Origin: Neocallimastix lanati (nom. inval.)
Taxonomy: Eukaryota > Neocallimastigomycota > Neocallimastigomycetes > Neocallimastigales > Neocallimastigaceae
DNA: 64,000 bases
Direction: 5' to 3'
NCBI GenBank assembly: GCA_016946835.1
Contig: JACVTC010000044.1
Span: 963,501 to 1,027,500, forward strand
Numbering within the stretch: the stretch's first letter is position 1; each line of letters begins with the position of its first letter. The position numbers and the translations under genes were made by a program. Under the pieces are notes generated by a model. The model was given only the letters and a program-made list of their open reading frames with translations, made no database searches and was not told the DNA's origin. Below, piece after piece: positions 22,809 through 60,720 of the stretch.

Positions 22809-23055
22809 TCAGTTCAAATTAATTATTTGACTGACCATATGATTTTCAGTTCAAATTAATTATTTGACTGACCATATGATTTTCAGTTCAAATTATAATT
22901 GACTGACTATTTTATTATTTTATTTTATTATTAATTTTTTTTTTTTTTTTTATTTTATTTCAATATAAAATTTTATTGATAATACTAATTTTCAGTTCAA
23001 ATTATAATTGACTGACTATATTATTATTTCAGTTCGAATTATAATTTGACTGACT
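22809..23055. repeat. Leader hairpin array of element A (5 units)
   Basis: Tandem units each made of an imperfect palindrome, TCAGTTCAAAT ... ATTTGACTGA, separated by spacers such as CCATATGATT: two full 37-bp units, one shorter unit, a poly-T interruption, then two more. Each unit can fold on itself. The copy at 60391-60720 has seven units. Confidence 0.85.
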
Positions 23056-23146
23056 ATAATATATATGTATATTATTATATACAATGAATGAATAATGATA
23101 TTATTAAATTGTATTAATCCCTCATTAATTTATTTATTTATTTATT

Positions 23147-23188
<42 letters not shown>

Positions 23189-23410
23189 TTTTGATAATAT
23201 ATTTTGATTTAATTATTATGAAAATAACAAAGTTAATTATGTAGATTCATAATTAATTAAATTATTTCTTTGATAATTCAAAATTAGATGTTATTATTGA
23301 TAAATATAAAAATGATTTTTAATATTAAAAATAAGAAAGCATTAGTTCAATTTATTTATAAGATGAATATATTTATATATTAATTATGTAAATTATAACT
23401 TAACTTATGG

Positions 23411-23442
23411 TTAAGCTCAGTTGTAGACTGAGACTCTTAATC
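23411..23442 (-). promoter_or_regulatory. Primer-binding site of element A with adjoining hairpin
   Basis: On the minus strand GATTAAGAGTCTCA (23429-23442) directly follows the 5' LTR. It is complementary to the anticodon arm of eukaryotic tRNA-Lys(CUU) (TGAGACTCTTAATC), implying a tRNA half as primer, as in Drosophila copia (which uses a tRNA-iMet half). It continues into CTCAGT-loop-ACTGAG, a 6-bp hairpin. Confidence 0.75.
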
Positions 23443-23682
23443 TATTAAACACCAAAAACAAATATTGAGAAAATTAGATATATTTTTAGAATAACATTTT
23501 ATATATAATACTTAATATTTAATTTTATTTATCTTTATTTTTTATGATTACAAAAGTGTATATATTTTTAACAAGGTTACATTTTATTTCTTTTATAATT
23601 TTATTTAAATATAATAATATTCTGATTGGGTAAAATATATTAAAGTCATTATTAAGTATTTATTTTTTTTTATATTCTAACA
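23443..23682 (-). repeat. 5' LTR of element A
   Basis: 240 bp, TGTTAGAATATAAA at its outer end on the minus strand; followed outward by AATAT (23683-23687), the target duplication, and then the severed end of the family B LTR (23688-23700). Confidence 0.93.
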
Positions 23683-23700
23683 AATATTTATATTTTAACA

Positions 23701-23702
23701 AA

Positions 23703-23756
<54 letters not shown>

Positions 23757-24389: not shown

Positions 24390-27300
24390 TCTTTATTATA
24401 CATTTATTTAAGATGGCTTTCACTACTTTGGTAGTATTTATTTCTTCTCTTGTATTAGTATTTTCATTATCAGATACGGCTTCTACCTTCACTTTATCAG
24501 GAATAATCATAGATTGTATTACAATACCATTTCCATCAATATCGGCTTGATTCCAATAGTATCCTTCAGTATAATATTCGCTTGAACTAGTAATTAAAGC
24601 ATCATTTACAGTAACATTTACTGTTGATTTATAAGGTGTTAAATTATACTCGAGATCATCCTCTCTTTTTTCAAAGAAATAATAACGACCAGTTTTTCTT
24701 GTAAAGGATTGCATATTTTCATTATATAGATATAAATATCCATTATTAATAAATGTTTTCTTTACTAATAGTTCATTATTAGTAATGACACTACTACCTT
24801 TTACATCTACTTTAGTTGCATACACATTTATTGCGTCATTAACCACCGTGTATAATATATCACCTTTATTAATTTGATTACCATTAATTTTACATTTACT
24901 AGCATTTCCAGATATTAAATCACAACGTTGTTTCATAATTTCCCATTTTTCATTACTATATTTAACCAACTTTTCGGAGGATGCTTTATTTATATAAATT
25001 TCATTTTCCTTCGGTTTTCTTTCTTCTTCACAATTACCTTTTTGACATATATACATTCTAGTCTTTTTCAAATATTTATCTTCTGTAATACCTTTTCCTT
25101 CTTTTGTATCAATAATGTAATATCCAATTGTGGGTTCATAAATGCTTACAATTGAATCTTTATTTACTCTTATGAGATCTGGGCGTTCACTGTGCCCTAA
25201 GAATTTTGATTTCTTGTATTTCATGAAATATTCATTTTCATTTCCTGTTATACATTTTCCTTCACTTCCAGATTTAATAAAGTTTTCAACATATATTAAT
25301 TTTTCTATTTTACCCAAAGTCTTGTCGACAACACTGTAATAGAAATAACTATTTCTTAAAAGATCTCTGGTAGAGCTACAAATACTATCTCTTTCATTAA
25401 AAGTGCATTCAATTAACTTGTCTTCAACACATGCAAATTTTTCACCTTCACGCTTACATATAATCATATAGTCTTCATTTCCTTCATTAATATAGTATCC
25501 TTCCATACCTTCACTTATTCCATATTCTTTACATATTCCATCATTATAGCATTTCACTATATCATTCCATGGCTTATTGAGATAATATCCTGGATCCCTT
25601 ACATGAGTAATAGTATTTGTTTCAGGATTACATTTAATGATATCCTTTTTTGAACTATCATATATGTATTCGAAATTACTTCCATTCTCACAAGCAGTCT
25701 TTTTGATACATCCTTCACTCTTACAGACATATAAGGAATATTGAGAATTAATTAATATATCCATATTATAATAGGAATACATTGTCACCAAATAATGAGC
25801 ATTATCAATAACGTATACACCTTTACCCAAAACTTCTACCTCATTTTCATTAATCCTATAAATTACCCCATCAATAACATAATATTTCCATTTTGTCTCT
25901 CTTTCATAAATAGAATTTTCTTCATCCGGTAGTGAATATTCTTCTTCATTGAATCTCACACAATCACCTTCAGTCGTACTCAATTTATTAATTGCTAAAT
26001 ATGTTATTCCATTTGATGATATACATATTTGACCTGCATTTAAATTTCCTGTTTTCAATTTACATTTTTCTTTTATATTATCATATGTACAGGATGTTGT
26101 TTTATCTACGTTGCATGAATCATTTGTGCATGTAACTATATTATCATTTCCATATAAACTATTTTCTCGCTATATTCCTTTAATATATTTATTACTTTCA
26201 TTTTCATTTTTAATTAAATTTGAAGTGACACTATTTATGTAATTCTTTCCATTTAATTTGTAAACACCAAACTTATCAACTGTATATACTTCTTCATTAA
26301 TATTATAATAACTAACCGCAGTATCAATTGGAAGTGCTATACAATTCATATTATCTATTCCTGTATTAATTTCATTGTATGCGAAATAGAATTTTCCATT
26401 TGTTGTTTCACAAATATTTCCAGCGCCTACTTTATTTTCCTTTCCATCTTCATCAATTTGTTTGGTGTAATATTCATCACTATATGATACATAACATATA
26501 TTTTGTTTGTATGTTAATGGGGAACACTTTGTAACATCCTTAAATTCTCCCCAAGCCCCATTATCATAAATATAAAGGGTATTAACGGTTTTTTTAGATT
26601 CAGCATTATAATGATTTGAATTATACAAGTATGATTTAGATTCATTATTAATAATTCCACTGTCAAATAGTTCCATACACACTAACTCTCTATTATCATT
26701 CTTTTTACATTTGTAAACATATTTAATTTTACTAAATTCTTGACCTTCAGTATTTTTAAATATGACATTTTCTTCAGTTACAAATACAACATCTTCTTTG
26801 TTATAGTTTGTCCATGAACATTTACTATTGGAACATGATGCGGTATACAAATTCTGTGAAAGCGTTTCAAATACAATTTTTCCATTATTGGAATCTTCAT
26901 TGATAATACTACATGTTCCTAAATTACAAATATACATTACTTTATCCTTTAATATATATAAATTTTCATCTCTATTATTTTGTACTACTTCATTCTTTGT
27001 AATTTTAACTAATATATATCCTTTAGAATTATCAGCATCTGGGAAATCACCATAGTTCGCAATTTCTACGATTTGATATACTGTACCAGATACATTCTCA
27101 AAATCTACAGAAGTACCTTTCTTTGTACATAATTTATACTTTTTATTTACTAATATTAATTCACCACCTTTTGTACAAGTATTACCAATATTAGTCTTAT
27201 ATTCATCACATTCAGAAGTCGTACATTGAATTATTGGTGAAATAACTGTATTAGTTACTTTAGCTGTTCCATAATTATTTCCATACTTATATGCAGAATT

Positions 27301-30300
27301 TATATACCAACCATTGCCTTCTATATTAGACTCCCTACAACCTATTTCAGAATTGCAATTAATTAATGGCTTAATATTTGGTTTATGCTTTTCTATTTCA
27401 GATTCACCTTTTAATTCACCATTTAACATCCATCCCTCAATGAAATCTCTTTCAGTACAAATTATTTTGTTTTCAGAAGTGTCTATTATAAAGTTATTTT
27501 CTTCAGTTTCATATCCGGTTTGAATACATTGAATGATTGGTTTATTTTTATTACCTGAAATATAGTATCCATCATTAGGTTTCATATAAGTAACACATTT
27601 ATCATCACCAGGTCCACCTGAACAATATACAAGTTCTTCAGCTATATTAGTTTTATTATTTTTTAAATACCAATTTTCATAAGGTGCCACTATTTTATTG
27701 CAAACTCCATTACTTTCACAATTATACAAAATACCACCAGAACTGAAATCACTATTAGGATTTACCTCATCGATTAACTTCATATCATCAGGATTAACAA
27801 CCTTAAAGCTATTCCATTTAACTAAATGAACATTAAATTTGTTTAATGAAACAATAATTTCAGTATTATTTGCAGATATTCCTGGGAATTCCTTCATATT
27901 TGACACATTCATAATTGCATTATAATCGTTATTTCCAATGACTACTTGTTTATTCAAGCTTTGACAAAGCTTAAACTTTCCATTGTTATATATAAGAGAT
28001 CCACTTGATGTACATTCATTTGTTTCTTTCGCTTCTACCACCTTACAATTACTTTCAACACATTCAATATATCTCTTATCTTCAAATTTATCATTGAAAT
28101 AAAATCCACTATTTATATTGCTGACTTCTCCACATTGAACTGTTTCCTCTTCAGAAACTGTACTGTAAGTTTTATTTTCACAAAGGTATAAATTACCTTT
28201 TCCATTACCTTCAAGAATTTCATTCGATGAACTATAAACTATATATCCTTCTTTAGTGTATTGTGTAATTGATAAATTTGTAATTTTTATAAGGATTACA
28301 GCTTTATCGTTTGTATTTTCTTCTGTATTTCCAATGGAAATGTCACCAAAAGTATTTCCTTTAGTAAGAGTTAAAAATTTATATTTCGCATTGGATGAGG
28401 ATGAGGTAATAAATTGTTCAGTACTGGTTTTACCTGTACATAGTTTAACGGTCTTTCTGTCTGGAGAACGAATAAGTCTACCTATTAATTGATCTGAACA
28501 TGTTGTAGTAGAGTATTCTATTGATTTATTTTCAGAATTAGCAAGTTCACAATTACCAGAGGAACAATAAATAATTGAATTAATTTGTCCTTTTACTGTC
28601 GTTTTTGCACCACCATTAAGGAAATAACCATTTGTCACTTCATTTTGTTCAACACAAGCCATTGTAGTGCTACTACAATAGTATAAATTATTACCATTAG
28701 CGATATTACTCTGTCTCTTTCTTTTACTACTTGTTGCTGTTTCAGGATCATCTCTTGCCATATTATTACTACTATCAATTAAGAAATAACCATCTCCTTT
28801 AAATATAGTGGCGTAATTTTCACCAATTTCTACCAAAAATGATTCAACTGTTTCAGCACCAGGGAAATTATTACTACCACTAATATAGAAGTAGTTTCCA
28901 TTTGAAATTGAATTATCAGTATCTGATACTCTCAATTCTCCATTAGAATTTAAATCTCCTTGTAATGTATTGGTATATCCTGTTAAATCACTACACTTTG
29001 TACTGTCACATTTAAACCATTTACTTCCAATTTTGGCATAACCAGTGGTAATTCTACAACTTGAATTTGAATCACAATAATACATTTTTGAACCTATGGA
29101 AGCGTCATTTTCTGTTGCTAATTTGCTACCATTTAATACAACTACTTTATTTGAAAGCTTACTACCACTACAACTAACACTTCCATTTGTGTTTTCAGTA
29201 TAATACATTGAACCCTTTGAGAAACAGTACATATTTGCTTCAGTGAATGAACTAGGACAACCATTATTAACACATTCTGAAATAACTAAGCTACTTTCAA
29301 CCTTATAATTACTACCAGATTTTTCTGGTGATTCATAACCTACTCCAATTACAGAATTAGATTTAGAATCAATCATTATAATATTTATATCACCTTCATT
29401 CACATCAAATGGGAATTTATTTAATGTGTTAGATTGATTAATTGTTTTAATGGTACCTGCAATATCACTTAAATTACTTGGACTTTTGGTAATACAAATT
29501 TGGTATAATTTATTAAATATTAAGTCTCCAAAATTACTACATGACTTAGGAAGTTCAACAATCATTGAACATACTCCCACTTGACATTTAATAGCAGCAA
29601 ATTGATCATCTCCTGATATATACCATCCACTGTATGGTTTACCGTTGTCATTTACAGATAATTCACACTTTCCTGTTTGTGAATTACAAAAATATAGTTT
29701 ATCGGATGAAGTAGTCTTAGTCGCCAATTCATTATTTTTTTCATCTAATAATATATAGTTATCCACTCTGAATACGACTTGCTTCAAATTAGTTGCTTGT
29801 ACAATAACTTTAACATTTTCAAATCCTGGAAATCCATTACTAACATATTTATATGTTATTATTCCTTCTTCTGGGAATACAATATCTTTATTACCATCAT
29901 TATCAGTGTCATAACTTGCAATTGAACAACCAGTATTACTACAACTAATGAGATTCTCACTAAATGTTGTATAGTAGTAGCCATAGGTCTTATTAGTAAT
30001 TTCTACTTTTATACAATTGTTGTTGAGGCTATTACATTCGTATAAAGTACTTCCCGATTTAGAATTTTCAGTTACTATCTTTTTTTCATTATCTATTAAA
30101 ATATAACCATCATTTATTATTAAATAGGCTACCATATCCTTAAAAGCAATTAAAATTTGATCTCCAAATTTACTTTCAGAAAATCCATCATTCACATTAA
30201 TGTCTGCAAAATAAACACCTTCATTTTCTTTGGTACCTCCACCTTCCAATGCTAATTTAAACTTCTGGCTGCCATCATTTGTACATATAGAATAATCATT

Positions 30301-33263
30301 TCCATCAAATGCTATGTTACCAGTTCCTGCAAGATCACAAGTAGTAATTTTTGTAGATGTATAATACGTACATCCAGATGACGTACATTTTGAATATCCT
30401 TTATTATTATTAGCAATAATACCATAGGTCTGATTACATTTAATACTTCTACCTACACTGATACAATTATATAATGATGAAAATACATGACTTTCATTTA
30501 CTAAGGAATGATCAATTAATCTGTATGTGACGTCAAACATATTAATTCCTTCTTTGATTTCATCATCCTTACCATATATAACTTTATTATATATACAGTA
30601 TTGATCGCTTTCAAGTTCAACTCCAGACTCAGTAACATATTTACAATTTTCATCATTGCTATCACATTTCTCTTTTGGTGCATCTTTTCCTTCCTCTTTC
30701 ATACAATTTGGTAATCCAAATTCTGAAGTAATTCCTATTAATTGACATCCATTGCTTTCACATTTTATAAGAGCATCATCAACACTTTTAGAAGCAGCAT
30801 TTTCATACATTAAACTTTCTCCCTGACCTACAGTAATAAATTCACATTTTCCTTCACTACCTCCACATTTTACCAATTCATTTTTATTAGTACCTATTTG
30901 AACTGTGTTTAAATAATATCTTACTGTCCCAGTAGTACTAATTATGTTACATTTTCCATTATTGCAAACGTAACCCATTCCAATAAGATTTTCATCTTTA
31001 CTACTTTTAATCATTTTGTAACTGTTTTCTTCATCTTCTTCATTTATATAGATAAATATATTTTTATTTTCTGAAGAATTAGTATAGGAAACATGACTTA
31101 ATTCATAAATTTCTACATATTCTTCCTCCTCTTCTTCTTCATCATCACTTCTTTTCATCTTCTTACCTTTTCTTTTATGTAATTTTGGTAAGTACTTTTT
31201 ATGTTTTGTACTAGCTTTAATAGGTTCACGTTTCTCAGTATCACCAGTATCTATACTGACTGAAATAACACCACCTTCAACTTTAACATTTGTATCTTCA
31301 TCTGAATCTTTTTCTTCTTCACACACTCCATCCTCACCACAAATAATCCATTTTCCAAATGGATCTAAATAACGACCAACACTAATAACTGTATTAATAA
31401 CATTATTTTCTTCAGAGAGAGTATTTGCACTTAATACACCATCTTTCACAACAAAGCTCGTGATTGGTTCTTCTGCAATTTCTCTTTCCACACAAACACT
31501 ACCAATATTACATTCTAATTTATGTATTAAAACACTATTACTATCATATTTTGGTATAAATACTTTTTGTAATGCTCCACTTTCAAGGTTATAATCCCAA
31601 TATCCATAGTTAGTATCATAATCATATTTATATTCCTCCAAAACTGCTGTTCCATCGTTTTTCCTTTTACAGTTTTCTTCGGATTTACAAGGATTATTTT
31701 CTATGTCTTCCTTAAAGATAATTGTATATTTATCAACATTTGCAGTAACGTAATCTTTACTAGATCCTGGGAATGGGAATTTCTTATTTAATTTACTTGA
31801 TAATGCATATAATTCATTAATTTTAATATTTTCCATTTTAATGGCATTATCATTATTATTATCTTTACATAACCTTATTTTTTCATTGTTTATAATATTG
31901 GCACTCTCACAACTACTACTACTAATATCCTTACAAGAAGTTATGTCCTCCTCTCCAACTTTCTCTGAAGTACATTTATAAATAGTGTTTCCTTTATATT
32001 CAACATAATAACCATTTTCAATAGTGACTAAGGAGCAGACGCCATATTTATCACTAGGACAGTAATATAATGATTTCTCATGATATACATAACCATCGAC
32101 ATTGGTGGCTAATAATACTGAATTTTTTTCAATTATTAAAGCAGCATATCCACTTGTTCCGGAAGTAAGTTTTACACCTGGAATTAAATCACTTTTACCA
32201 TAATATTGAATTGAGTACTTTCCATTACTTGCTTCCAAGGTTTCTGTTTTTCCTTTACCATTACACCATGAAATAACTTCATTAATTTTAATGAATTCAC
32301 CTGCATTAGAAGGGCTGCAGGCATTAGTTTTAACTTCCTTATAGACGCAAGTGCTTCTATCGGTACAACGAATGATAGCTTCTTTATTAGATACATCACT
32401 TTCTGCGTTTATATACCATCCATTAGACTTACTTTTCATACTTTCTAATTTATTACCATCAAAATAAATTATAGGATTATAATATGTTAATGGATCACCA
32501 TTTAAGTAGTAACCTTTATTTGGACTCACTACAGAACATACTTTCTTAGAATCACAGCCAATCAATTTTCTACTATTTACATTACTATCACCATCAGTCG
32601 AATCAACATACCATCCCTTTTGGGATACTGTAAATGGTGAACAAATATTCTTGGTGATACAATATATCAACTGTTTAGTTTCACCATTAATATAATATTT
32701 CTTACTCTCTCCTTCTACAGTTTCACATCCACTACTTAAGTTACATTTAATTAATGATTTTCCATCATAGAAGGAAGCCGAATTAGTGTAATACATATCC
32801 CCTGACAAACTGTTTGGTTTAGTTTCAGTACAGACAACATTAGTATTTTCTAATACACATTTAATTAAATAATTTCCATCTGTTGTTTGGCCATTACCGT
32901 TAACATAGTATCCAATAATTGGAACTGGATATGCCGTACATAAAGTTTTCTCAATATCACCATTTGTACTTTTAGTACAACGAATAATAGCTTTTCCGTT
33001 TTCACCACTCTTGTACCATCCCTCTGGATTATCTATTTCTTTACAGGAAGAAGAAGTACAGCTAATTAATTTTTCATCCTCTTTAATATAGTATCCTTCA
33101 TTGATGGTAATTAAATATTTACAATTAATAGAACCCATCGAATTGTAACATTGTACTAGAGGAGCTGTGATATTTTGATTTAAATAATAACCTACACTTG
33201 TATTAGAGTAGTCTTCACATCTATTACCATTGCAACTAATAATCTTCTTTTCAGAATTACTAA
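24390..33263 (-). pseudogene. Inverted partial copy of the scaffoldin gene
   Basis: This is the reverse complement of 1624-10497 with exactly the same length (8,874 bp), so no net indel. It encodes the same Cys-paired GYYxN units, without the N-terminus and the anchor end. The frame stays open except for one TAG (26170-26172, ...KYIKGI*RENS...) where the source has TGG. It therefore appears as two in-frame ORFs, 26170-33339 and 24352-26058. Both ends run into unrelated sequence: 13 codons ending IVKKVKILTFN on the left, and antisense of a different decayed gene on the right. It is mostly identical to the source, apart from a diverged patch (about 27215-24830). A truncated expressed product cannot be excluded, but no start signal is evident. 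Confidence 0.88.
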
Positions 33264-33427
33264 TATTTAATGAAAACGGAGATATCAAACTTTGTATAGA
33301 TGGACATTGTGGTAGATTTGTAGGAGATCCTTGAACCACTGAAGATGAATATGCAAAGGATATTGTGATGAAGAATACATCTTACCTAAACAACCAGAGA
33401 GGGAAACTGACAATGAACATAATTTTG

Positions 33428-33458
<31 letters not shown>

Positions 33459-33615
33459 GGTATTCTAGGATTTTTGATTATAATTGTGTTCATTGTATTT
33501 TGTATGCTCGTTATAACTCCAATACTAAAGCTAGTGATACTAAATCTTATAAGCAATTTAATTATATTCGGTGTTTAATATTAATATATTATAATTTTAG
33601 TATAATACTATATAA
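33264..33615 (+). pseudogene. Decayed secreted/membrane protein fragment at the duplication break point
   Basis: On the plus strand the bases right after the scaffoldin copy read ENGDIKLCIDGHCGRFVGDP, then a TGA (33332-33334), then TTEDEYAKDI; another frame continues EEYILPKQPERETDNEHN, a T32 run, and a hydrophobic segment (ILGFLIIIVFIVFCMLVIT) that could be a membrane span. This looks like a Cys-containing ectodomain plus membrane anchor broken by frameshifts and a Trp-to-stop change. Not assigned to a family. The minus-strand ORF that continues the scaffoldin copy to 33339 is the antisense of this fragment. Confidence 0.4.
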
Positions 33616-33739
33616 TATATATCGAAAAAAATGATTTGGCTGATTTACAACAAAAAGAAAATAATTATTTAAGATAACAACAAGGATTGTTTATAAATTG
33701 TGAATCACAGATATAGATACTTAAAAATGGTATTTTTTT

Positions 33740-34376: not shown

Positions 34377-34414
<38 letters not shown>

Positions 34415-36124: not shown

Positions 36125-36160
<36 letters not shown>

Positions 36161-36298: not shown

Positions 36299-36535
36299 GC
36301 TGACATTTCAGCTCTTTATTATAACGCTGACAATATTCAGCTTTTTTAATTATGCTGACCTTTTCAGCTCTTTATTATAACACTGACAATATTCAGCTCT
36401 TTTTAATAACGCTGACTTTTCAGCTTTTTTTTAATTATGCTGACCTTTTCAGCTCTTTATTATAACGCTGACAATATTCAGCTGTTTATAATAACGCTGA
36501 TTTCTCAGCTTTTTAATTATGCTGACCTTTTCAGC
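36299..36535. repeat. Leader hairpin array of family B
   Basis: About nine short palindromes of the form GCTGAC-(2 to 9 nt)-TCAGC separated by A/T spacers (TTTATTATAAC, TTTTAATTAT). Same relation to the PBS as the arrays in elements A and C, but unrelated in sequence. Confidence 0.85.
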
Positions 36536-36839: not shown

Positions 36840-36882
36840 AACTTAATGTTCACTCAATCTGGTGAGATTGAGACTCTTAATC
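36840..36882 (-). promoter_or_regulatory. Primer-binding site of family B with adjoining hairpin
   Basis: On the minus strand GATTAAGAGTCTCA (36869-36882) directly follows the LTR, then CTCAATCT-CACC-AGATTGAG forms an 8-bp hairpin. The core is the same 14-mer as in element A. Confidence 0.75.
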
Positions 36883-37703: not shown

Positions 37704-37977
37704 GATTAAGCGTCTCAACTATTCAATTGAGCTATCAAATAAAGTTAAGTTGAAATATATAAAACATAATATTTTTTTTTGTATATCATTCATATTCAAA
37801 CTAATAACAATATATTTTTATTATTCATATAATATTCATTATAGAAACAAAATATAATAACCATCATTAATAAACAAACATTACAGAACAATATTGAGTG
37901 TGTTGAGGATACAAGATGTTAATTAAAGTATATATTGTAATAATTCATAGTTATTATTACATTTCATAAATAAATTT

Positions 37978-39960: not shown

Positions 39961-39962
39961 TA

Positions 39963-40649: not shown

Positions 40650-40697
40650 TTTTATAGTAATAAAAAGAAATGCATTCAGTTTATTACAAGTTGAATA

Positions 40698-47160: not shown

Positions 47161-47922
47161 TTATAAATTTTCTTTTCTATTCTTTAAATTTTTATTTTTT
47201 CTTTTAAATTTTTTATAGGCAATATTATCAAATATTTTTAAAACTCCTTCTGAAAAATTTCTGAGCGATCCTGTTCTTCTCTTATAATAATAATATATTC
47301 CTTCATCAGGTAAATTCAGAACTTTTGGATTATATTTATAAGCTAACACATTAAAGGCATAGTCATTTCCTTTTATCAATTTTTCATTATATCTAATATT
47401 ATTATCGTTTAAAAACTCTTTTCTCCAAATTGAATCGTAAATTGACCAATGCTGTTTATATTTTTTTTGATAATAATATTTAGAATTATTAGTACCAAGT
47501 ACAAATTGACCCACAACAATATCATAATCATTTGAATTTTGAAGTAGATTTTCATAAAATCTTTCATCAATATAGTCATCACTGTCAACAAAACCAATAA
47601 ATTCTCCTATTGAATTTTCAATTCCTGCGTTTCTTGCAGCGCTAGCACCTTTATTTTTTTCAAAATGAATAATTTTAACTCTGTTATCAATCATTTTAAA
47701 CTTTTCTAATATTTCCATGGAATTATCTATTGATCCATCATCAACACAAATTAATTCAAAATCTTTAAAAGTTTGATTCAATATTGAATTTATACACCTA
47801 TCCAAGTATAATGCTGTGTTATAAACTGGCACAACAATTGATAAAGGTAATGCATAAATATTCTTTATAAATATTTCTAAATATAATAAAGTAATTAAAA
47901 ATACTTTCATTAATAAATTCAT
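47161..47922 (-). CDS. GT2 (GT-A fold) glycosyltransferase with signal sequence
   Basis: 253 residues. An N-terminal hydrophobic stretch (about residues 1-22, ending IYA, a possible cleavage site) precedes a family 2 glycosyltransferase: LSIVVPVYNT (27-36), LICVDDGSIDNS (57-68), KGASAARNAG (91-100), GFVDSDDYID (110-119, the DxD metal/sugar-nucleotide site), then a C-terminal part with SIWRKEFL, YAFNVLAYKY and YYYYKRRTGS. This type is common in bacterial capsule and O-antigen loci, where the protein usually starts at the SIVVPVYN strand with no leader. Here it would act in the secretory pathway. Sugar donor and acceptor are not predictable. A broken paralogue lies at 39963-40649. Confidence 0.87.
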   Translation of the reverse strand: MNLLMKVFLITLLYLEIFIKNIYALPLSIVVPVYNTALYLDRCINSILNQTFKDFELICVDDGSIDNSMEILEKFKMIDNRVKIIHFEKNKGASAARNAGIENSIGEFIGFVDSDDYIDERFYENLLQNSNDYDIVVGQFVLGTNNSKYYYQKKYKQHWSIYDSIWRKEFLNDNNIRYNEKLIKGNDYAFNVLAYKYNPKVLNLPDEGIYYYYKRRTGSLRNFSEGVLKIFDNIAYKKFKRKNKNLKNRKENL

Positions 47923-48904
47923 TTTTTTAATTTTTAATTACCAACAATTTTTATTTAGTATATATATATTTTTTTTTATTTTTATATTTCAAAAATAAAA
48001 TAAAGTTATATATGTTTTAATATTTTTAATAAATAATTTTAATTTTTTAATTAATTGAAATATTAAAATTGTTATTAAAAAATTAATAAAAAAACTATTT
48101 AATAATTTATTAAAATTTTATATGTTTCATATAAATTTTTTATAATTATTTTCATAAAAAATATTTAATTAAAAAAAATTAAAATTAAATATTATTTTTA
48201 TTATTTTTTTTAATATATATTATTATTAAAGAGTAATAAATCACTTACGAGAAAATTTTGTTTTTTCTAAATATACAAAAATATTAAAATTTATTAAAAT
48301 AATGTTAAAAATTTTTGTATGCTTTTTATTAAATAGCTGCTTATTGTTTATGTATATTAAAGGTGTATAACTAAAATACATTTTAAGTAATTATAATATA
48401 TAATGTAATTATTTAGTTATAAAATTTTAATAATTATGTGTTTAAATTTTTTAAATTTATATATTTCTTTTATATACATGTTATTATAAAAAAAAAATTT
48501 ATTTAATTAGAGATATAAAATTGAAAAACAAAATCTATTATATTTTTATATTTAATATAATAATTAATTTTTTAAAGGAAAAAATGTTATTTTAAATATA
48601 ATTTTTATTAATTGTGAAAGTATATAGAATATTTTGGAAATTAACTTGTATTTTAATTACTTAAATTTTTATTTTACAATTTATGTTTAGTGAAAATTAA
48701 TTTATAAATAATTAAATATGATTTAAATTATTTTTATTTTTATTTCAATTCATTTATTTTTATAATAAATAAATAAGAATAAATTATAAAAAAATTATTC
48801 TAATAAAATTTTTTAATTATAATTTTAATTTACACTACATATAAGCAAACAATACCTTATAATCTACAAATAATATTACAGAACTTTTTACCTGTACCTT
48901 AATA
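47923..48904. other. AT-rich spacer
   Basis: No ORF, repeat or RNA gene is visible; upstream region of the minus-strand GT2 gene on its left side. Confidence 0.6.
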
Positions 48905-51014: not shown

Positions 51015-51223
51015 TGTACAAGAGATAAATCTCATTTTTTATTATATAAGAATAAAGAATAGTATATATACATAATTTTATACTTTTTTATGGTATTTAT
51101 AGTTAATATAATATGTGGCTATTTGTTACTATTAGTCACATATCTTATACTAATATATTAATTTATATAACATTACTCCTTTAAATAATATAACTATAAA
51201 TCTTAATATTTTTGTTTCTAACA
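51015..51223 (-). repeat. 3' LTR of family C element C1
   Basis: About 209 bp; aligns to 54610-54820 with scattered substitutions, thus older than element A. Confidence 0.8.
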
Positions 51224-51257
51224 TTCCCCCTCAAATCTAACTTTGGGTGAAAGTTAG
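51224..51257 (-). promoter_or_regulatory. Polypurine tract and adjoining stem-loop of family C
   Basis: GAGGGGGAA on the minus strand abuts the TGTTAGA LTR start. An 8-bp perfect stem (CTAACTTT 51237-51244 with AAAGTTAG 51250-51257) sits directly upstream, in the same position as the stem in element A. Confidence 0.75.
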
Positions 51258-51643
51258 AGTTGAAGAGAAATATTGCAAATGTATTACTATATAAAATAAT
51301 ATTTTTTTTTTTTTTTTAATAATAATAATACAAATAACATATTATAAAGTACATGAAAAAGACTTATTTTATTTTTATATGTAAACAAAAGAAATTATTT
51401 TTATATATTTTAGATTCTAACGTTTCCCCTTACTTTCAAATTGGATTGGAGTTATTTTTTTATTATTACTATTATTTATTAATCTTTCTTTACTTAAATT
51501 ATTATTATGTCTTTTTATCTTATTTTATTATTACTTTTATTTTTTTATTTATATGAATCACTTTCTGGGAAATAATTTATTGTTTGATGATAAAAATATT
51601 CATAGAATCATATAAAGATTGAAGGTAATTTGGTATATCAGCC
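51258..51643. other. AT-rich segment inside element C1
   Basis: Contains a second string resembling an LTR/polypurine junction (TTCTAACGTTTCCCCTTACT near 51415), possibly from a further element fragment. The 67-codon plus-strand frame here is Tyr/Phe/Leu-rich A/T noise. Confidence 0.4.
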
Positions 51644-52275
51644 TTACCCTTCTTCTAATAATTCAATATTTTTAATAACTTCTTCACATAATAATTCATA
51701 TTTATCCTTCTTTATTTTATAAAATTGTTTATGTTCCCTTAATATTGAGGTAGCACGTCTACATTCTTGAATGCCATTAATTTCGGTACTTAATCTTTAT
51801 TTTGTTTGAGCTATCATTTTAGTAGTAATATCCATTTTAGTACAAACATTATTATAATTGTAAACAGAATCTTCGGCATCACGAATAGCTTTATCTAAGA
51901 AAGTTTTAGCAATTCATGGAAGTTTTCCATAGCTGATAAGTATAAATAATCAATAACTTTAGAACTTGAACTTAAAGAATAACTAAAAAGATTTATCCTT
52001 TTTTTTTTTTTTTTTTTTATAAAATATCTTTATCTCCTTTTAATTTTGCATCTTTAGATATAAAGGCAAATTGGTTTTGTTCGTTTATAGTAGTTTTCAT
52101 ACAATTAATCATTTTTTTTTATATTGTCTTCGGTTGTTTGATATATTTCTTCAATCTATTAAGTATATTAATAGTTGTATCAACCTTTGGATCAACAGTT
52201 TTAACTGGTTAGAAAAAGCCAAACTGAGCGTTAACTTGCTCTTTAAAAGCTTGATTAAAGCAAGCTGAAAATAAA
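51644..52275 (-). pseudogene. Coiled-coil (BAR-like) protein pseudogene inside element C1
   Basis: Minus-strand reading begins FNQAFKEQVNAQFGF, then VKTVDPKVDTTINILNRLKK, KTTINEQNQFAFISKDAKLK, a poly-T interruption, DKAIRDAEDSVYNYNNVCTK, MDITTKMIAQTK, a TAA, RLSTEINGIQECRRATSILR and EHKQFYKIKKDKYELLCEEV, ending at TAA 51644-51646. The heptad pattern and length resemble a BAR/sorting-nexin helical domain, but this is only an impression. Stops and frame changes are present. A shorter homologue lies at 39797-39960, also next to a family C leader. Confidence 0.5.
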
Positions 52276-53020
52276 TAAAAAAAAAAAATTACAAAACTAT
52301 AACAATATATAATTTATAATATTGGTTTATTGTTGATTATTACATTTATACTAATAATTTTTTTATTTTATATAAATATTGATTATATTGGTTTATTGTT
52401 GATTATTAAGTTTATACTAAATTTTTTTTTTATTATATATATATACATATATATTGATTATATTAAGAGTATTGTATATAGCTGTATTTAAATAATGTGT
52501 GTTTTTTATTATTATTATTATTTTTTTTTTATTTTTTTTTTTTTTATTTTACTAATTATAAATAATAAAATTTAATTCATTTGATAAAATGCTGTATTTG
52601 TCATCATGTATTACTAGAATATCTCCATTAAATTAATTATTATTTTTATGAAATAAATATAACACTGTTTCAAAATCTACAACGCATTTGTCATTTGTTA
52701 GTTTGAAGTAATATCTTTTAAATAATAATAAATTGCGAAGGATAAACGTAACTTCTTATTTTCAATAATATTAAAACACCATTACGAAGATTCATCGGAT
52801 GAATGAGTTAATTTCATAAAAAATCTTTCTCAAAAAATCTTTTATTGGTAAATGTATTTATTGGTTATAAAATACCTCTAAATCTATTCATAGGTTTTCT
52901 GGTATTAGTGATCATATTTTTAATAGCATTTAAATCTCCTTCTTCTTTTTTATATATAAATATATATATGATTCCCATTTATAATTAGATGTTAAGCATT
53001 GATTTGAAGAATAATAAATA
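52276..53020 (-). other. Decayed coding sequence and poly-T spacer in element C1
   Basis: On the minus strand, about 52560-52740 reads KLTNDKCVVDFETVLYLFHK and DILVIHDDKYSILSNELNFI, and 52830-52950 reads EEGDLNAIKNMITNTRKPMN. Both look like coding relics; no family recognised. The rest is A/T-rich with T runs. Confidence 0.4.
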
Positions 53021-54084
53021 ATTCAAATAATATATTTTAAATTATTTTATATAGATTATCTAAATGTAATCTTCCCTATTATTGTTAATGATATATATAA
53101 ATGGATTTTTTATGAATAAATATGTTTAAAAAAAATATATAAATATTTTAAATATCAAGTTTCGAGATTTAACAAAATTTAGATTAATAAATGATAGATT
53201 AGATTTTTATAAATATTGTATATTATTAATATAATTTTTTTTAAAAAAAATTTTAAATTGTTATTAAAATTGATAGATTGGATTAAATATTATTGATTAA
53301 AGTTTAGCAAAAATAATATTATTGATTGAATTTAATTTAATTTTAATTTAATAAAACATTAATTAATATTATTTTTAATGGATTGATATAATTGGACATT
53401 TTAAAATTATTATAAATTAAAATTTGAAATATATTAAATAAAAATGAATATTATAATAAATTAAAATTTTATATTATAAAAGTTTTATTTAATTAATTTC
53501 TCGGATACTCTAATTTTAATTTATTTCTTGAACATTATTTATTAAAATTTTAGTGTAAAACTTTAATTATTAAAATTTCTATTATTATATTTTCTGTGGA
53601 TTGTTTCTAGTTTCAACATTAATTATTTGTTAATTTTTCTTAATGGTATTTTATTGTATATTAAAAATTAAGTTAATTCATAATATATGTATATTATATC
53701 TTTTATATTATTTTGAATTGTATAATGTTAGAACGGATTTTGTGTGTGAGGATATATTATTTAATATTTAATAATTTTATTATTTTATTATTTATATATT
53801 TTATTAATATTAAAAATAAATTATGTTTATATTATATATTAATGTTAATATTAATTTTTTTACAAATCATTTTTCTTTGTCTCTTTTTCAATTAGTTGTT
53901 AATTTTTTATTTTATGTGTTTCATTAATATTTAGTTAAAAATAGTTATTATTAATTAGCTTGAATAAACAGATTATTTGTAATTGATAATTCTTAGTCTT
54001 AATAACTTAAAATGACTATTATTTTAAATTTAATTATTTAAAACTTCACTAGTTAGACTATTATTTTTATTTTTATTTTCTATT

Positions 54085-54290
54085 ATTTTCAATTTAGTTA
54101 ATCTAGTTGACAATCATTTTATAGTTAATTATTTGCAACTTAGATAAACTAATCGGCAATTATTTTTATTGTTAATCAACCTAGCTAGTTGACAATTATT
54201 TTTATTCTATTATCAATTATTCACAACTTAGCTGGTTAACATTTATTTTTTATTTTCAATAATTCTCAACTTAGATAGACTAATTGACTA
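54085..54290. repeat. Leader hairpin array of family C
   Basis: Five diverged tandem units, each a short palindrome such as CAAC-CTAGCTA-GTTG followed by ACAATTATTTTT-type spacers. Placed between PBS and interior, as in families A and B. Confidence 0.7.
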
Positions 54291-54564
54291 TTATTTTATT
54301 TTAATATTTTCTTTTTATCCATTTATATGTATATGTATTTATATTATTTTTTTTTTATTTTTAGAAAAAAATTAATAATAACTATACACTATTACAATAA
54401 GCATTTTATTTTAAATTTTATATCCTTAACATTCTCACAATTGTTCTGTAATGTTGGTTATTACGTTTTGTTTCTATAATAAATTTTATAAAAATAATAA
54501 AAAAATATATTTTTATTAGTTTGATTATTAATGATAAAATGATTTTATATTTTATATATTTCAA

Positions 54565-54609
54565 CTTAGCTTTATTGATAGCTCAACTGAAGAGTTGAGA
54601 CTCTTAATC
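54565..54609 (-). promoter_or_regulatory. Primer-binding site of family C with adjoining hairpin
   Basis: GATTAAGAGTCTCA (54596-54609, minus strand) directly after the 5' LTR, then CTCAACT-CTTC-AGTTGAG, a 7-bp hairpin. Same core as families A and B. Confidence 0.75.
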
Positions 54610-54820
54610 TGTTAAAAGTATAAATCTCTTTTTTTTTATTATATAAGAATAAAGAATAGTATATGTACATATTTTTATACTTCTTTATGGTATTTATAGT
54701 AAAAATAATATGTGGCTTTTTGTTACTATTGGTCACATATCTTACACTAATATATTAATTTATATAACATTACTCCTTTAAATAATATAACTATAAATCT
54801 TAATATTTTTGTTTCTAAAA
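54610..54820 (-). repeat. 5' LTR of family C element C1
   Basis: About 211 bp; ends TGTTAAAAGT / GTTTCTAAAA in the plus reading, the last bases diverged from the TCTAACA of the 3' LTR. Confidence 0.8.
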
Positions 54821-56372
54821 TATTATAAATTTTATTAATAATCTAAAAATCTATAAATAAAATATAAAAACCAAAAAAAATTTATTATATATATTATTTA
54901 AATATAAAAATTTTTAACTACATTTAAAAATAATTTATTTTAAATATTTAATTATTTATAATTTTTTAAAATTAATAATATTTAAAATATAGTATTTATA
55001 TATATAATTAATGAATTATTATTTTAAATAGAACAATTATACCGAAATTTATTATTATTTAAAAGATTTGCTTAATAAATTTTATTTGAAATATTTTTAA
55101 AGTGATTCATATTAATTATATTGTTAAAATATTTTTATTTTTTGGAAAGGTTTAATCTAGAAATAATTGTTTACATTAGTTAGAGAGGAAAGATTTAAAT
55201 GAAAAAATAATTCTTTATTGCTTTAATGTCATTTTTTTTGTACTTCTCTACAATTAGATTTATTTTTAAATCTCTAATTTTAATTTACGGTTAATTCTTA
55301 CTTTATAATTTAAATAATTTGATTAAATATTAATATATTTAATTAATTTAAAAATAATAATTTAAATTAGTTATATAGGAAAGATATGAAATAATAAAAA
55401 TTATTTATTTTATATACTTTCATATATTTAAAAATTCTTATTCTTTATATATGATGAATTAAAATTTATATTTTCAAATTGGAAATACATTTAAAAATAA
55501 TTTCAAAAAATATATATAATTATAATTATAATTATAGAATATGTAAAAATATTTTGAATTCTTATATTGGAGTTATAAATTACACAATTTTATTTATGTT
55601 TATAAAAATTACTACTATTTTTATATTAATATTATATTATTAAAACTTTTTTATTTAATTTACTATTTTTAAAATTGAAATATAATAAATAAAAATTAAA
55701 ATTTATGGAAATTTCTTTTAATATTTATTATAATTATTATTAAAAAATACTAAATAATTTTCTTGAAAAATAATTACTATTATTCATATTATTAGGCTTA
55801 AATTATATAATAGCATAACTCCGATTTCGTATTTTCAGATGTATATTTTTATTTTTAATTTTTGAAATTTTAATTTGTTATTTAAAAAATAGCATAATAA
55901 CTAATTTAATTATCCTTAATTTTAAAAGATAAATATAAAATAAAAATAAAGATATTGTTTATAAAACTAAAATGAAATTATTATTATAATATTTATTTTT
56001 TAATATTTTCAAATTAAATTAATAAATTAAAAAAGAATTAGAAAAAATTTTATTATAAACTTTAAAATTTTATAATTTATTTATTTATAATTAAAAATAT
56101 ATATAAATATTTTAATTCAAATTAACCAAAAATATACAAAAGTTGTAAAATTAATATTCAACAAATTAATTTTTAATTTTTAAAAATTTAAATAATAAAT
56201 ATTTTTATTATAAATTTTTATAATATTAGATTATATAAATAGATACTTTTTACAATATTTAAAAGTTTTGAATTTTTATTTTTCGATTTATTATTTATTT
56301 ATTTATTAATAAGTTAAATTTTATTATTATTATTAAAATAAAAATAAATTTAAAAAAATACACCTAAAAATA
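54821..56372. other. AT-rich spacer upstream of the UDP-glucose dehydrogenase gene
   Basis: No coding sequence, repeat or RNA gene seen. Should contain the promoter of the gene at 56373; no element can be singled out. Confidence 0.6.
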
Positions 56373-58905
56373 ATGATTTGTGATTCTTTTTTAATTAATG
56401 AAAATAAAAATGAAAATCAAATAATTAATAATGAATTAAATAAATTTTCATTTAAAAAATATTTGAATAGAGCTTTAAATGTTTGTTATATAGGAGCTGG
56501 TTATGTTGGAGGTACATCAAGTAGTGTAATGGCTTATAAATGTCCAATTGATGAAGTAATTGTCACTGTTTGTGATGTAGATATTGAAAAAATCAACTCT
56601 TGGAATTCGGATAACGTAAATAATTATAAATTTGAAAAATAATATATTACATTTATATAAATGAAAATAAATTTAAATTAATGTATATTTTTGCAATTAT
56701 TTTTTTTTACTATTTAATATCCATTAAAGCTTCCAATATATGAGCCTGGATTAGAAGAAATTGTAAAAGATAGAAGAGAAAAAAATTTATTTTTTACTAA
56801 TGATTTCGATAGAGCTATTTACTCAGCTGATATTATATTTATTTCTGTCGGAACTCCCACAAAAAAAAGAGGAATAGGTGCTGGTCAAGCAGCTGAACTT
56901 TCGTATGTAAAATATTACAAAAGTTTAATATAATAGTTGTATAAATAATAAAAAAAATAATTTTTTTTAAAGTAACAATTTTAATTAAATACATATGATA
57001 ATTAAGTTGTTAATTTTATTGTTTAAAATATATATAAAATAATATGTTTTTAATATATTACCTATTTATCTTACTGACATATTTTTAAAGGTTTATTGAA
57101 AAAGCCGTTAGAAAAATTGCTAATATATCTAGAAATTCAAAAATTATAGTAGAAAAATCAACAGTGCCATGTAAAACAGCTGAACATATTAGAGCTATTT
57201 TAACTGCAAATCAAATTAGAAATAATAATAGCAGTAATTTATGATCAATTAAATTAATAAATCATATTAACAAATTATAATAAATATAATTATTAATTTT
57301 TTTTATAACTATATTATTTATTTTTATATTTTAAAATATTATTAAATTAAATAAAAAACCTATTAGAAGAAAATATTAATAAAAAAGAAATTAATTACAT
57401 TAGTTTGTCTCGTTCAAGTAGTAATTCTACTTTAAATGAAGAATTTTCCAATTCAGAAAATCAAAATATATTAGATAATACTGAAAATGCATCAATACAT
57501 TTTGAAATACTATCAAATCCGGAATTTCTTTCAGAAGGAACGGCTGTAAATGATATTCTTTATCCTGATAGAGTTTTAATTGGTGGTTTACAAACAAAAG
57601 AAGGAATTGAAGCTCAGAACATATTATCTCAGCTTTATTCATATTGGGTACCTGAAGAAAAAATAATAAAAATGGGTCTTTGGTCAGCTGAATTATCAAA
57701 ATTAGTAAAAATATATATTTTTATATCTAATAATTTATATGAATTATAATTTTATTTTGTATAAAAAATTATTTATTACATATTGGTTGCTTAAAAAAAA
57801 AATATTATCTAATATTAAATTATTTTTATATATCTTTAAAGACAGCAAATGCTTTACTAGCTCAAAGAATTTCTAGCATTAATTCTCTAAGCGCTTTATG
57901 TGAAGAAATTGGATCAGATATTCAGGAAATATCATATGCCTGTGGTTTAGATACCAGAATAGGACCAAAATTTCTTAATGCTAGCGTCGGTATGAATATA
58001 TCATAAATTAATAATAATAAATAAATAAAAAACAAGTATAAATTATATATTAATTACTATTAATTTATTTTAAAAGGATTTGGAGGAAGCTGCTTCAAAA
58101 AAGATGTTCTAAATCTAGTGTATCTTTCAAATTATTATAAGCTTCCAGAAGTTGCTGAATATTGGAATCAAATAATTACCATGAATGAATATAGAAAGTC
58201 AAGATTTGTAAAAAATATTTTTAAAAAACTTTTTAATACGATTTCTGATAAAACAATAACAATATTTGGATTTTCTTTCAAAAAGAATACAAAAGATACT
58301 AGGTAAAACAAATTTATATATATAAATATTTATTATTTTGAATTTATATATTAAATATTTATTTTAATATCTAATATATTTAAAAAATGATTAGAGAATC
58401 TCCTGCAATTACTGTAGTATTATCATTACTAAGAGAAGGAGCTTTAATTAAAATATATGATCCAAAAGTTTCTGAAAAGCAAATTAAAAATGATATTATT
58501 GAAAATTGTGATATTCAAAATTATAATGGTAATTAATAAAATTAAAAAAATTATAAATTGTAAAATTTATTTATTTATATTTTATATCTTTTATAATATT
58601 TTATTTTTATATAGTTTAAAATTATATTTATTAATTTTTGATTCTTTCTATTAATTATTATTTTTTATTAAGATTATATTTCCAGAATTAAAGTTTGCTC
58701 ATCATGTTATGAAGCAGCCGATTGTTCTAATGCTATTGTAATTTGTACTGAATGGGATGAATTTACTTTAGTAAATTATAGAAGAATTTATAATTTTATG
58801 TTAAAACCTGCATTCATATTTGATGGACGTTTAATATTAAATCATAAAGAATTAAAGGAAATTGGATTTTTCGTTGAAGCCATCGGAAAAAAATTTGACT
58901 TTTAA
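56373..58905 (+). CDS. UDP-glucose 6-dehydrogenase, 8 exons
   Basis: Oxidises UDP-glucose to UDP-glucuronate with two NAD+. Exons: 56373-56615, 56730-56902, 57091-57233, 57367-57704, 57842-57989, 58077-58302, 58395-58528, 58673-58905. All introns are GT-AG with matching phases, giving 545 residues. Landmarks: NAD-binding GAGYVGG (41-47), [22 protein letters not shown] (160-165), [12 protein letters not shown] (235-245), WSAELSKL with the conserved Lys (about 298), [10 protein letters not shown] with catalytic Cys 354, and ICTEWDEF and KPAFIFDGR near the end. Intron 2 carries an ACTGAC branch-point-like sequence 19 nt before its AG. Two additions against the usual ~494 residues: about 34 N-terminal residues and a Ser/Asn-rich insert at about 178-228, straddling intron 3. 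The product feeds glucuronate-containing glycans. Confidence 0.93.
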
Positions 58906-59800
58906 TAATTTATTTGGATAATATAATTTAACATTTAATTTAATTGTATTTTTAAAAATATATCTATTACTTCTTTTTTTTATAAATAAAAAATGTTTTA
59001 CTATATTAATATGTAAAAATTATTATTATTTATCTTCTAATTTAGTTTAATAAAGTTGTATGTTATTTTTGTTCGGTGGTGAAATATATTAAATAAATTT
59101 AATTTTTATAAAGTAATAAATTAAAAAAAGTGTTAGAGACGAAATCGTTACATACATTTATTTATATTATTAATTTATATCAACCAATAATTAATCTTTA
59201 ATTAAATTAAATAATGTTAACTAAGATATAAAATATGAAATATATTTAATGTAAAAATATCTCTTAGAAAAATATATATATCCTCATAATAAAAATTATT
59301 AATAAACATTTTATAATATTACACATAACATAAAATACTTTGTTATATTGTTTTTATTAATACAGTGTTTGTCTTAGATTTATAAATTTGTTTTTCACAA
59401 AAAGTAAAATATTAATTAAATATTTAATAAAAAATCCTAAATATTACTATTTAAAATGAATTATGGAGCTATTGTTCAAATGGAGGTATTAATTCTATAG
59501 AATATTAAAAGAAAATTAAATAAATTTATAAATGAGCGTAAAAGATAAGAAAATATCTAAAAAAAAATAAAATATAAAAATAAATTCCAGAAAAATAAAC
59601 AATTTGAATAGAAAATATATATTTCTTATTTAAAGAAATAAATGATATAGATTCAATTAAAAATAAATAAATAATATTGAATTTATATAAAATAATTAAA
59701 CAAAAGTACTGTTAATATAAATTATTATTAATATTTTTAATTTAAAAAATAATTAAAAGACTAAAGATATTTAATTATATATATTGATATAAATACAATA
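58906..59800. other. AT-rich spacer
   Basis: 3' flank of the dehydrogenase gene. TGTTAGAGACGAAATCG near 59132 looks like an LTR start but has no partner here. Otherwise featureless. Confidence 0.55.
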
Positions 59801-60043
59801 TGTTAGAATATAAAAAAAAAAAATAAATACTTAATAATGACTTTAATATATTTTACCCAATCAGAATATTATTATATTTAAATAAAATTATAAAAGAAAT
59901 AAAATGTAACCTTGTTAAAAATATATACACTTTTGTAATTATAAAAAATAAAGATAAATAAAATTAAATATTAAGTATTATATATAAAATGCTATTCTAA
60001 AAATATATCTAATTTTCTCAATATTTGTTTTTGGTGTTTAATA
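59801..60043 (+). repeat. 5' LTR of element A2
   Basis: 243 bp, TGTTAGAATAT ... GTTTAATA; differs from the LTRs of element A by a few substitutions and a slightly longer A run near its start. Confidence 0.92.
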
Positions 60044-60075
60044 GATTAAGAGTCTCAGTCTACAACTGAGCTTAA
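60044..60075 (+). promoter_or_regulatory. Primer-binding site of element A2 with hairpin
   Basis: GATTAAGAGTCTCA right after the LTR, continuing CTCAGT-loop-ACTGAG; identical to element A. Confidence 0.75.
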
Positions 60076-60390
60076 CCATAAGTTAAGTTATAATTTACAT
60101 AATTAATATATAAATATATTCATCTTATAAATAAATTGAACTAATGCTTTCTTATTTTTAATATTAAAAATCATTTTTATATTTATCAATAATAACATCT
60201 AATTTTGAATTATCAAAGAAATAATTTAATTAATTATGAATCTATATAATTAATTTTTTATTTTAATAATAATTAAATCAAAATATATTATCAAAAATAT
60301 TTTTAAAAAAAAAATAAATTAATGAGGGATTAATACAATTTAATAATATTATTATTCATTTATTATATATAAAAATATACATATATATTA

Positions 60391-60720
60391 TAGTCAGTCA
60401 AATTATAATTCGAACTGAAAAAAATAATATAGTCAGTCAATTATAATTTGAACTGAAAATTAGTATTATCAATAAAATTTTTTATTGAAATAAAATAAAA
60501 AAAAAAAAAAAAAAAATTAATAATAAAATAAAATAATAAAATAGTCAGTCAATTATAATTTGAACTGAAAATCATATGGTCAATCAAATAATTAATTTGA
60601 ACTGAAAATCATATAGTCAGTCAAATAATTAATTTGAACTGAAAATCATATGGTCAGTCAAATAATTAATTTGAACTGAAAATCATATGGTCAGTCAAAT
60701 AATTAATTTGAACTGAAAAT
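60391..60720. repeat. Leader hairpin array of element A2 (7 units)
   Basis: Two units, a poly-A interruption, one short unit, then four full 37-bp units (GTCAGTCAAATAATTAATTT, GAACTGAAAATCATATG). Element A has only two of the full units, so the array changed length between copies. Confidence 0.88.

Follow-up and report, generated by a model that had tools for sequence, protein, structure and literature searches.

The window analysed here, a 64-kb stretch of DNA from the anaerobic fungus Neocallimastix lanati (an AT-rich genome of 199 Mb in 762 contigs, and the one genome in which the arrays described below have been seen), contains long terminal repeat (LTR) retrotransposons that carry tandem arrays of short hairpins in the leader, downstream of the primer binding site (PBS). 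The leader array is a real, conserved, covarying and sense-polar feature of one clade of copia elements. Its most likely function lies in recognition of the RNA by machinery of the element itself, in which the hairpins would act as multivalent Gag sites, in packaging and possibly in dimerisation, a reading to which we assign a probability of about 0.45.

The units of the array share a single plan: G-UCA-x-y, an upper stem of 2–9 bp, a loop, the return strand of the upper stem, a bulged A, y'-x'-UGA and (A/G)AAU. The conserved left arm, (A)UAG-UCA-xy, and right arm, A-y'x'-UGA-AAAU, can pair as a 5-bp stem with the bulged A on its 3' side. The x and y pairs switch together between families, occurring as GC/GC, AC/GT and GT/AC. 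In element A, the stem is of the UCAGU/ACUGA type with the bulged A and an upper stem of some 3–5 bp. A permuted order, with UGA first and a loop of 4–7 nt, is the rule in element B and at three loci from elsewhere in the genome (L034, L072 and L041), and array B is also matched in the TCAGC..GCTGA register. The permuted units suggest that it is the paired arms, rather than a linear palindrome, that are recognised.

Two covariance models were used to place the units. Model R2 was built partly from A units and two C units, and many of the surveyed leader families also supplied units to it. For model R3, 19 units were taken from L032, L039, L068, L071 and L073/L074, none of them from the window; its training elements are of the GC type, and one of the 19 units, from L071, has the UCAGU/ACUGA stem found in A. 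An earlier, sequence-only reading of the window had described tandem hairpins in four stretches, belonging to three families whose sequences were held to be unrelated. The placements by R2 and the searches with R3 bear out the hairpins in all four stretches and the tandem palindromic architecture in several families. R3 recovers four of the five A units, all seven in A2, three in B (at 36331, 36387 and 36499), the first and last units of C and one unit in C2, a fifth array that had been overlooked. With R2, four rows were obtained in B (36331–36529, minus strand, E 0.007–0.66), and in C the units at 54083–54114 and 54260–54291 were matched at E<0.0001 and that at 54170–54196 at E 0.17. Since R3 recovers A, B and C without having been given any window unit, we conclude that these are one motif with compensatory changes, not three; three unrelated inventions are ruled out by the matches of this model to all five window arrays. 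Part of the recognition by R3 is owed to the shared flanks and the UCA/UGA letters.

The matches are confined in place and in orientation. When R3 was run on both strands of the window and 13 loci (170,768 bases), all 20 rows at E≤1 lay on the sense strand and fell in arrays A, A2, B, C and C2 or in that of L038, between the PBS and the gag side and never in the LTRs; no off-array match at E≤1 was found elsewhere in the window or at the 12 other loci that share the tRNA-Lys(CTT) primer site. In 21 further leaders, all 51 rows were sense and 15 leaders were matched, those missed being L053, L063, L064, L065, L066 and L077. All R2 rows at E<0.01 were likewise sense, 76 of 76 in one search and 35 of 35 (31 distinct places) in another. 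No relatives of the array were found in viral contigs or in a genome contig set of bacteria and archaea only, a composition that makes the latter negative of little weight. The position that had been claimed for the arrays, between PBS and gag, holds, with the qualification that B has no gag or pol homology nearby and that C is a non-coding LTR element.

Covariation was assessed in 36 units from about 15 elements of roughly 11 families, hand-chosen from an anchored list, with a few added from other leader inspections; misparsed-looking candidates were left out. Of the 288 cells, 92.0% are paired, against at most 37.5% when the partner is slid by one to three columns. Cells in which both sides differ from the commonest pair number 33, compared with 12.2 in shuffled sets (0 of 500 as high), and further pair types number 11, compared with 8.8 (13 of 500 as high). 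The invariance of UCA and UGA here reflects the choice of nearly all units through the anchors GTCA and TGA. Candidates unselected on x and y tell the same story, both variable pairs being Watson–Crick in 49 of 93 distinct candidates as against 20.4 on permutation (maximum 35 in 5,000). Among genome strings absent from the leaders examined, 14 of 38 are fully paired where 6.06 are expected (p 0.0004); these 38 come from 51 distinct strings in the first 70 rows of matches to ATAGTCA..TGAAAAT, in which rows of the same family are non-independent and some are chance matches. Genome-wide, that pattern occurs 366 times and its reverse 55 times. Two fully paired stems within the single element L071, UCAGC-UAU..AUA-A-GCUGA and UCAGU-CAU..AUG-A-ACUGA, display paired changes at positions 5 and 6. 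Bases that change together in this way suggest that the fold is being preserved.

Some details of the pairing vary. Placing the bulge between pairs 6 and 7 gave a poorer fit than placing it between 5 and 6 (89.9 versus 92.0% paired, 27 versus 33 double changes). In certain units its place may shift. L068 is an example: if its bulge is moved up by one position, most of its units have U-A as the sixth pair and one has C-G. In one region of L038, a right arm pairs by eye with the next left arm (GGUUA-A-GAUGA...UCAUC-UAACC). The pattern GTCANNYAT..ATRANNTGA has 622 genome-wide matches against 40 for its reverse, and the 622 were not used as an array count; among the 100 matches listed, many are dispersed singles, mostly of 27 nt (for example on C46, C16 and C21), which are possibly another repeat family.

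Hairpins were also counted with no anchor, as those sharing one identical 5-bp arm with at least two G/C, against 50 dinucleotide shuffles per leader. There are six in the A leader, seven in A2 and eight in B, compared with at most one in the 50 shuffles of each; one of those counted in A, and one in A2, is the hairpin at the primer site described below, and array C did not pass this count. The procedure yields the arms TCAGT, GCTGA/TCAGC and TCAAC. Over 35 leaders, it flags only A, A2, B, L002/L003 (one element) and L009, and it also misses C, C2 and the clade members L005, L010 and L012; its silence elsewhere is weak evidence. Folding no better than that of random sequence had been named as an outcome that would count against the arrays, and it was not what we observed: the z-scores of RNA folding are −7.43 for A, −6.88 for B and −5.26 for C, with 200 shuffles yielding no value as good. 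For 22 arrays delimited by eye, z ranges from −1.40 to −8.35, compared with −3.03 to +1.62 for neighbouring leader windows (60 shuffles each).

The distribution of the array was followed in two samples. Among 20 PBS-bearing stretches sampled regardless of arrays, five (L032, L034, L038, L039 and L041) belong to the pol clade of A, with the element reading from that PBS, and all five carry units. The other sample came from a gag search in which the best 150 of 1,206 candidates were scored, with gag families of 100 to 47% identity among those scored, and from which 28 leaders (L052–L079) were taken. R2 gave at least one match at E<0.01 in 21 of the 28. L063, L064, L065 and L077 constitute one leader type that R2 misses at this threshold; inspected by eye, L064 has a tandem unit of the same plan with a 9-bp upper stem and one lower-pair mismatch. 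The L072 leader has the permuted form of the unit. The array comprises from 1 to 10 copies, lying some 0.05–0.85 kb past the PBS and ahead of gag, in leaders of about 0.6–1.35 kb, and unit types follow the Gag lineage. An extra pair of matches in L040/L041 (C1:647032-647103) lies ahead of the gag homology of a second element. Intact elements, in most of which the array might have proved absent, do carry it: an open frame of at least 1,400 residues was present in six fetched elements (L038, L055, L058, L061, L065 with one internal stop, and L068), five of which have an R2 match at E<0.01, and the sixth, L065 (R2 E 0.4), has the L064 type of leader. The LTRs of L038 are 99.6% identical.

We also considered the array as a general copia feature and found no support for this in the other lineages of this genome, R3 having no match in 12 other PBS-bearing loci, of which three (L043, L045 and L049) lack pol homology to the queries and are not proven to be copia elements of another clade. 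The first open reading frame (ORF; at least 150 residues) starts 29–582 nt past the PBS in L033, L037, L042, L045, L046, L047 and L050; that of L035, at 1,276 nt, belongs to a neighbouring element of the L034 type. Overall, the array belongs to one Ty1/copia clade in this genome.

In element A, the LTRs flank gag, rve lies in the first ORF and RVT_2 is downstream, an order that identifies it by sequence as a Ty1/copia (Pseudoviridae) element. A2, at the right edge of the window, is an inverted near copy of A at 96.6% identity. Unit number changes quickly, from five in A to seven in A2, despite gag–integrase ORFs that are 99.7% identical.

Element C is of particular relevance to function. In its window copy, no sense ORF starting with ATG reaches 60 residues, and the gag and pol pieces of A and L038 find no homology there. 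Its 710-bp leader has at least 23 near-full matches including itself (45 rows; best 40 of 236 candidates), and its 2-kb interior at least eight full-length matches including itself (104 rows; best 40 of 978 candidates). In at least six other copies, leader and interior share a strand and are separated by the same distance, about 600 nt, and from this colinearity we infer that the other copies also lack coding sequence. The LTR pair, the PBS, the lack of coding capacity (checked in the window copy only) and the multiple copies mark C as a non-autonomous LTR derivative, which we take to be of the LARD-like class. The C leader is 76–79% identical to leaders directly preceding L058-type gags (C41, C390 twice and C732). 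Retention of the PBS and the array by C would be expected if helper proteins required the array in cis to mobilise the element.

The PBS is a 14-nt sequence, GATTAAGAGTCTCA, directly following the LTR in all five window elements (with one mismatch in C2), and is the exact complement of nucleotides 27–40 of tRNA-Lys(CTT), a tRNA primer site as in copia elements; it has 1,902 genomic copies, compared with none for the reversed pattern. Drosophila copia is likewise primed by a half-tRNA. A UCA..UGA hairpin adjoins the primer sites of A (23405–23442, minus), A2 (60044–60080, plus), B (36840–36882, minus) and C (54568–54609, minus). In several families, its 3' arm matches the complement of the tRNA-Lys D arm (ACCGATTGAG in L074, TTGAGCTA in C), and the hairpin may possibly mask a second tRNA contact. 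In L019, L020, L034 and L072, the primer site itself is able to pair just downstream (AAGAGTC..GACTCTT). Two further boxes were seen by eye: AAGCTAAGT(A/T), about 40 nt past the PBS, in L032, L038, L039, L041, L054, L058, L070 and C, and a box bearing CCAATC, closer to gag, in L032, L034, L038, L052, L054 and L061. The tRNA-Lys(CTT) sits within a tRNA cluster in L051, the sole copy checked as a tRNA; a 17-mer of its anticodon arm has 73 genomic copies, which on C94, C188, C251, C304 and C353, among others, alternate in orientation at intervals of about 5–6 kb.

Packaging, dimerisation and Gag binding together make the best functional reading of the array, one that gains support from the non-coding element C. 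In the mechanism we propose, the hairpins of the full-length RNA would be repeated binding sites for the element's own Gag, with its zinc knuckle and basic tail, and sites in tandem would provide a cooperative, multivalent mark of the genomic RNA for particle assembly. Packaging might be accompanied by dimerisation, since every left arm is able to pair with every right arm, whether of its own RNA or of another. Through its variable x/y pairs each family would have a slightly different signal, the number of units would grow and shrink through tandem duplication, and C would retain its array because it is needed in cis to borrow the proteins of autonomous relatives. Transcription of the leader is inferred here from the biology of LTR retrotransposons. 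We count in favour of a role in RNA the asymmetry of the bulged A, the tolerance of loop length, the permuted arms, the place downstream of the PBS and element C; as expected of a psi signal, the array is located in the 5' region of the genomic RNA and is kept by non-autonomous derivatives.

A number of observations weigh against this reading. The array has been seen in one genome alone. Pairs with any double change number five, compared with a shuffled mean of 3.9 (84 of 500 as high), and A-C mismatches occur in four of the six units of L071. Only 15 of the 22 arrays fold relatively better as sense than as antisense RNA, and, because arms pair with many other arms, a whole array at minimum energy does not fold into a plain succession of hairpins. 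The family of L063, L064, L065 and L077 was recognised by eye only, no array was found in two of the 28 gag-linked leaders (L060 and L066), and L041 has a single unit, seen by eye. Moreover, the zinc knuckle and basic tail of Gag occur also in other clades that have no array. In a wobble test, one G-U was present in each of six distinct units and one A-C in each of 10, about four of the 10 being misparsed, and these counts are neutral between selection on RNA and selection on DNA.

The nearest functional parallels to recognition by Gag, so far as the available parts of the source papers describe them, are the packaging region and palindromes of Ty1 together with barley BARE2. In Ty1, a packaging region has been proposed at +230–580, and the 5' region contains PAL1/PAL2, Box0/Box1 and a pseudoknot (PMC8396678). 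As here, the structured 5' RNA is that of an element of the copia superfamily, in a comparable place, and is tied to Gag binding, dimerisation and packaging; the available text differs in describing no tandem array of one hairpin and in centring the Gag contacts on the pseudoknot (PMC8396678). BARE2 makes no Gag, retains signals for packaging and for dimerisation, and is packaged by BARE1, to which it is related (PMC3735527), in parallel with the role proposed for element C. It differs in that it may still translate the rest of its ORF, whereas C has no detectable coding sequence, and in that the accessible account includes no hairpin array (PMC3735527).

The alternative that survives best, though we judge it improbable, is that the array, as an RNA structure, serves not recognition by Gag but some other replication step, such as genome dimerisation, placement of the primer tRNA or cyclisation. 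The arms are mutually complementary, and two RNAs could zip together; the 5' end of Ty1, as partly described, uses the palindromes PAL1/PAL2 and tRNA boxes (PMC8396678). The hairpin at the primer site, moreover, shares its lower stem with the array units in A (UCAGU/ACUGA) and in L038, L052, L053, L054, L057, L058, L079 and C (UCAAC/GUUGA). This sharing does not extend to the GC-type families or to B, where the primer-site stem is UCAAU.. and differs from the stems of their own arrays, and simple pairing would not require the bulged A or the conserved AAAU and AUAG flanks.

Next in order, and unlikely in our view, is that the array acts as DNA, its tandem dyads being sites for a host factor in a downstream enhancer or insulator. 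Precedents are to be found. The nearest described arrays in copia elements, as far as the available text of the report goes, are the family-specific palindromes of Sireviruses, plant Ty1/copia elements with 8–32 copies and a constant core in 12 of 13 elements, interpreted as DNA binding sites for factors, with stress-factor sites proposed (PMC2829016). In the light of these, the earlier statement that no equivalent had been described is too strong: like the present arrays, they are multi-copy palindromes of copia elements in which a common core is joined to an element-specific remainder (PMC2829016). They differ in being placed before env and, within the LTR, ahead of the TATA box, whereas the arrays here are between the PBS and the gag side with none in the LTRs; in having a CGG-CCG core and CpG islands in place of UCA/UGA; and, in the description available, in showing no bulge or polar flanks (PMC2829016). 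The nearest positional parallel for DNA is the gypsy insulator, in which, according to the accessible part of its description, an LTR element has several protein sites close together in its 5' untranslated region (PMC2493044). It differs in that its sites are DNA sites for Su(Hw) and the element is not a copia element. We know of no compensatory base pairing in that insulator. The untranslated leader of Drosophila copia resembles the present case in carrying repeats, which are short enhancer motifs acting as DNA and not paired hairpins. Within the open-access PMC literature, judged by titles and the openings of abstracts, we could identify no paper on tandem hairpins arrayed between the PBS and gag.

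Within the arrays themselves, the approximately equal frequency of G-U and A-C intermediates would suit sites read as DNA. Their anatomy counts against it. The spacing of the half-sites varies inside single elements (14–16 in A, 10–12 in L052), the plan, with its bulged A, a G preceding UCA and AAAU following UGA, is asymmetric and, at E<0.01, invariably in the sense orientation, two stem types coexist in L071, and the permuted units of B, L034, L072 and L041 retain the arms in swapped order.

It is very unlikely that the arrays are neutral tandem repeats, palindromic by chance and inherited by descent. The lability of unit number between A and A2 would be in keeping with this, and because unit types track the Gag lineage, independent double changes are few; nevertheless, five of the eight pairs show double changes between families that have only about 50% identity in Gag, and the unit plan and its flanks remain recognisable across those same families. 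Least credible is a translation device (a ribosome shunt, an internal ribosome entry site or delayed translation of Gag), which the sequence-only reading had entertained: the array is indeed placed in a leader of 0.6–1.35 kb ahead of gag, but, since the multi-copy, non-coding C keeps both PBS and array with no gag homology or sense ATG ORF of 60 residues to translate, such a role is disfavoured and a cis-acting role in replication is favoured.

The features located in the window are collected in Table 1. Besides these, the window contains an 8.9-kb inverted duplication (1621–10497 and 33266–24390, 99.1% identical), one side of which covers most of an ORF of 2,403 residues (26170–33381, minus strand); with the A/A2 pair, it gives the window the appearance of a partial mirror image. 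A 697-bp duplication (39961–40656 and 47233–47929, 89% identical) has one ORF in each copy, and from a motif we take these, presumably, to resemble family-2 glycosyltransferases.

Table 1. Retrotransposon features of the window, in window coordinates
Feature	Position	Strand	Remarks
Element A, 3' LTR	17689–17928	−	99.6% identical to 23443–23682
Element A, 5' LTR	23443–23682	−	LTR pair comparison
Element A, gag (Retrotran_gag_2), zinc knuckle CX2CX4HX4C then basic stretch, Pol_BBD, integrase	20132–22276	−	
Element A, copia-type reverse transcriptase (RVT_2)	17982–19460	−	
Element A, PBS GATTAAGAGTCTCA	23429–23442	−	complement of tRNA-Lys(CTT) nucleotides 27–40
Element B, PBS	36869–36882	−	
Element C, PBS	54596–54609	−	
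Element A2, PBS	60044–60057	+	
Element C2, PBS	37704–37717	+	one mismatch
Element C	51025–54821	−	two LTRs 94% identical; PBS and array kept
Array A, five units	22803–22838, 22840–22875, 22877–22910, 22986–23019, 23024–23057	−	R2 E 1e-6 to 6e-4
Array A2, seven units	60390–60722	+	R2 matches; all seven also R3; two units more than A
Array B, permuted order	36299–36535	−	short hairpins GCUGA-(4–7 nt)-UCAGC
Array C, stem type UCAAY/RUUGA	54083–54291	−	units 54083–54114, 54170–54196 (weak), 54260–54291
Array C2 remnant, one unit	38086–38112	+	in a second, truncated C-type element; R2 E 7e-5, R3 E 0.0019

A more specific form of recognition by Gag can be put forward tentatively, although we regard it as doubtful. 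The array might be a modular RNA 'barcode' in which a fixed frame (UAG-UCA ... A-..UGA-AAAU) is combined with covarying pairs; each family's Gag would thereby pick out its RNA from those of the genome's many copia elements, and non-coding parasites would keep the barcode in order to be packaged. How Gag chooses its own RNA in LTR retrotransposons is poorly known. A covarying, family-variable hairpin, together with natural non-coding hitchhikers, offers a ready comparative system for this question, and a specificity code, if one exists, would be readable from the many families of a single genome.

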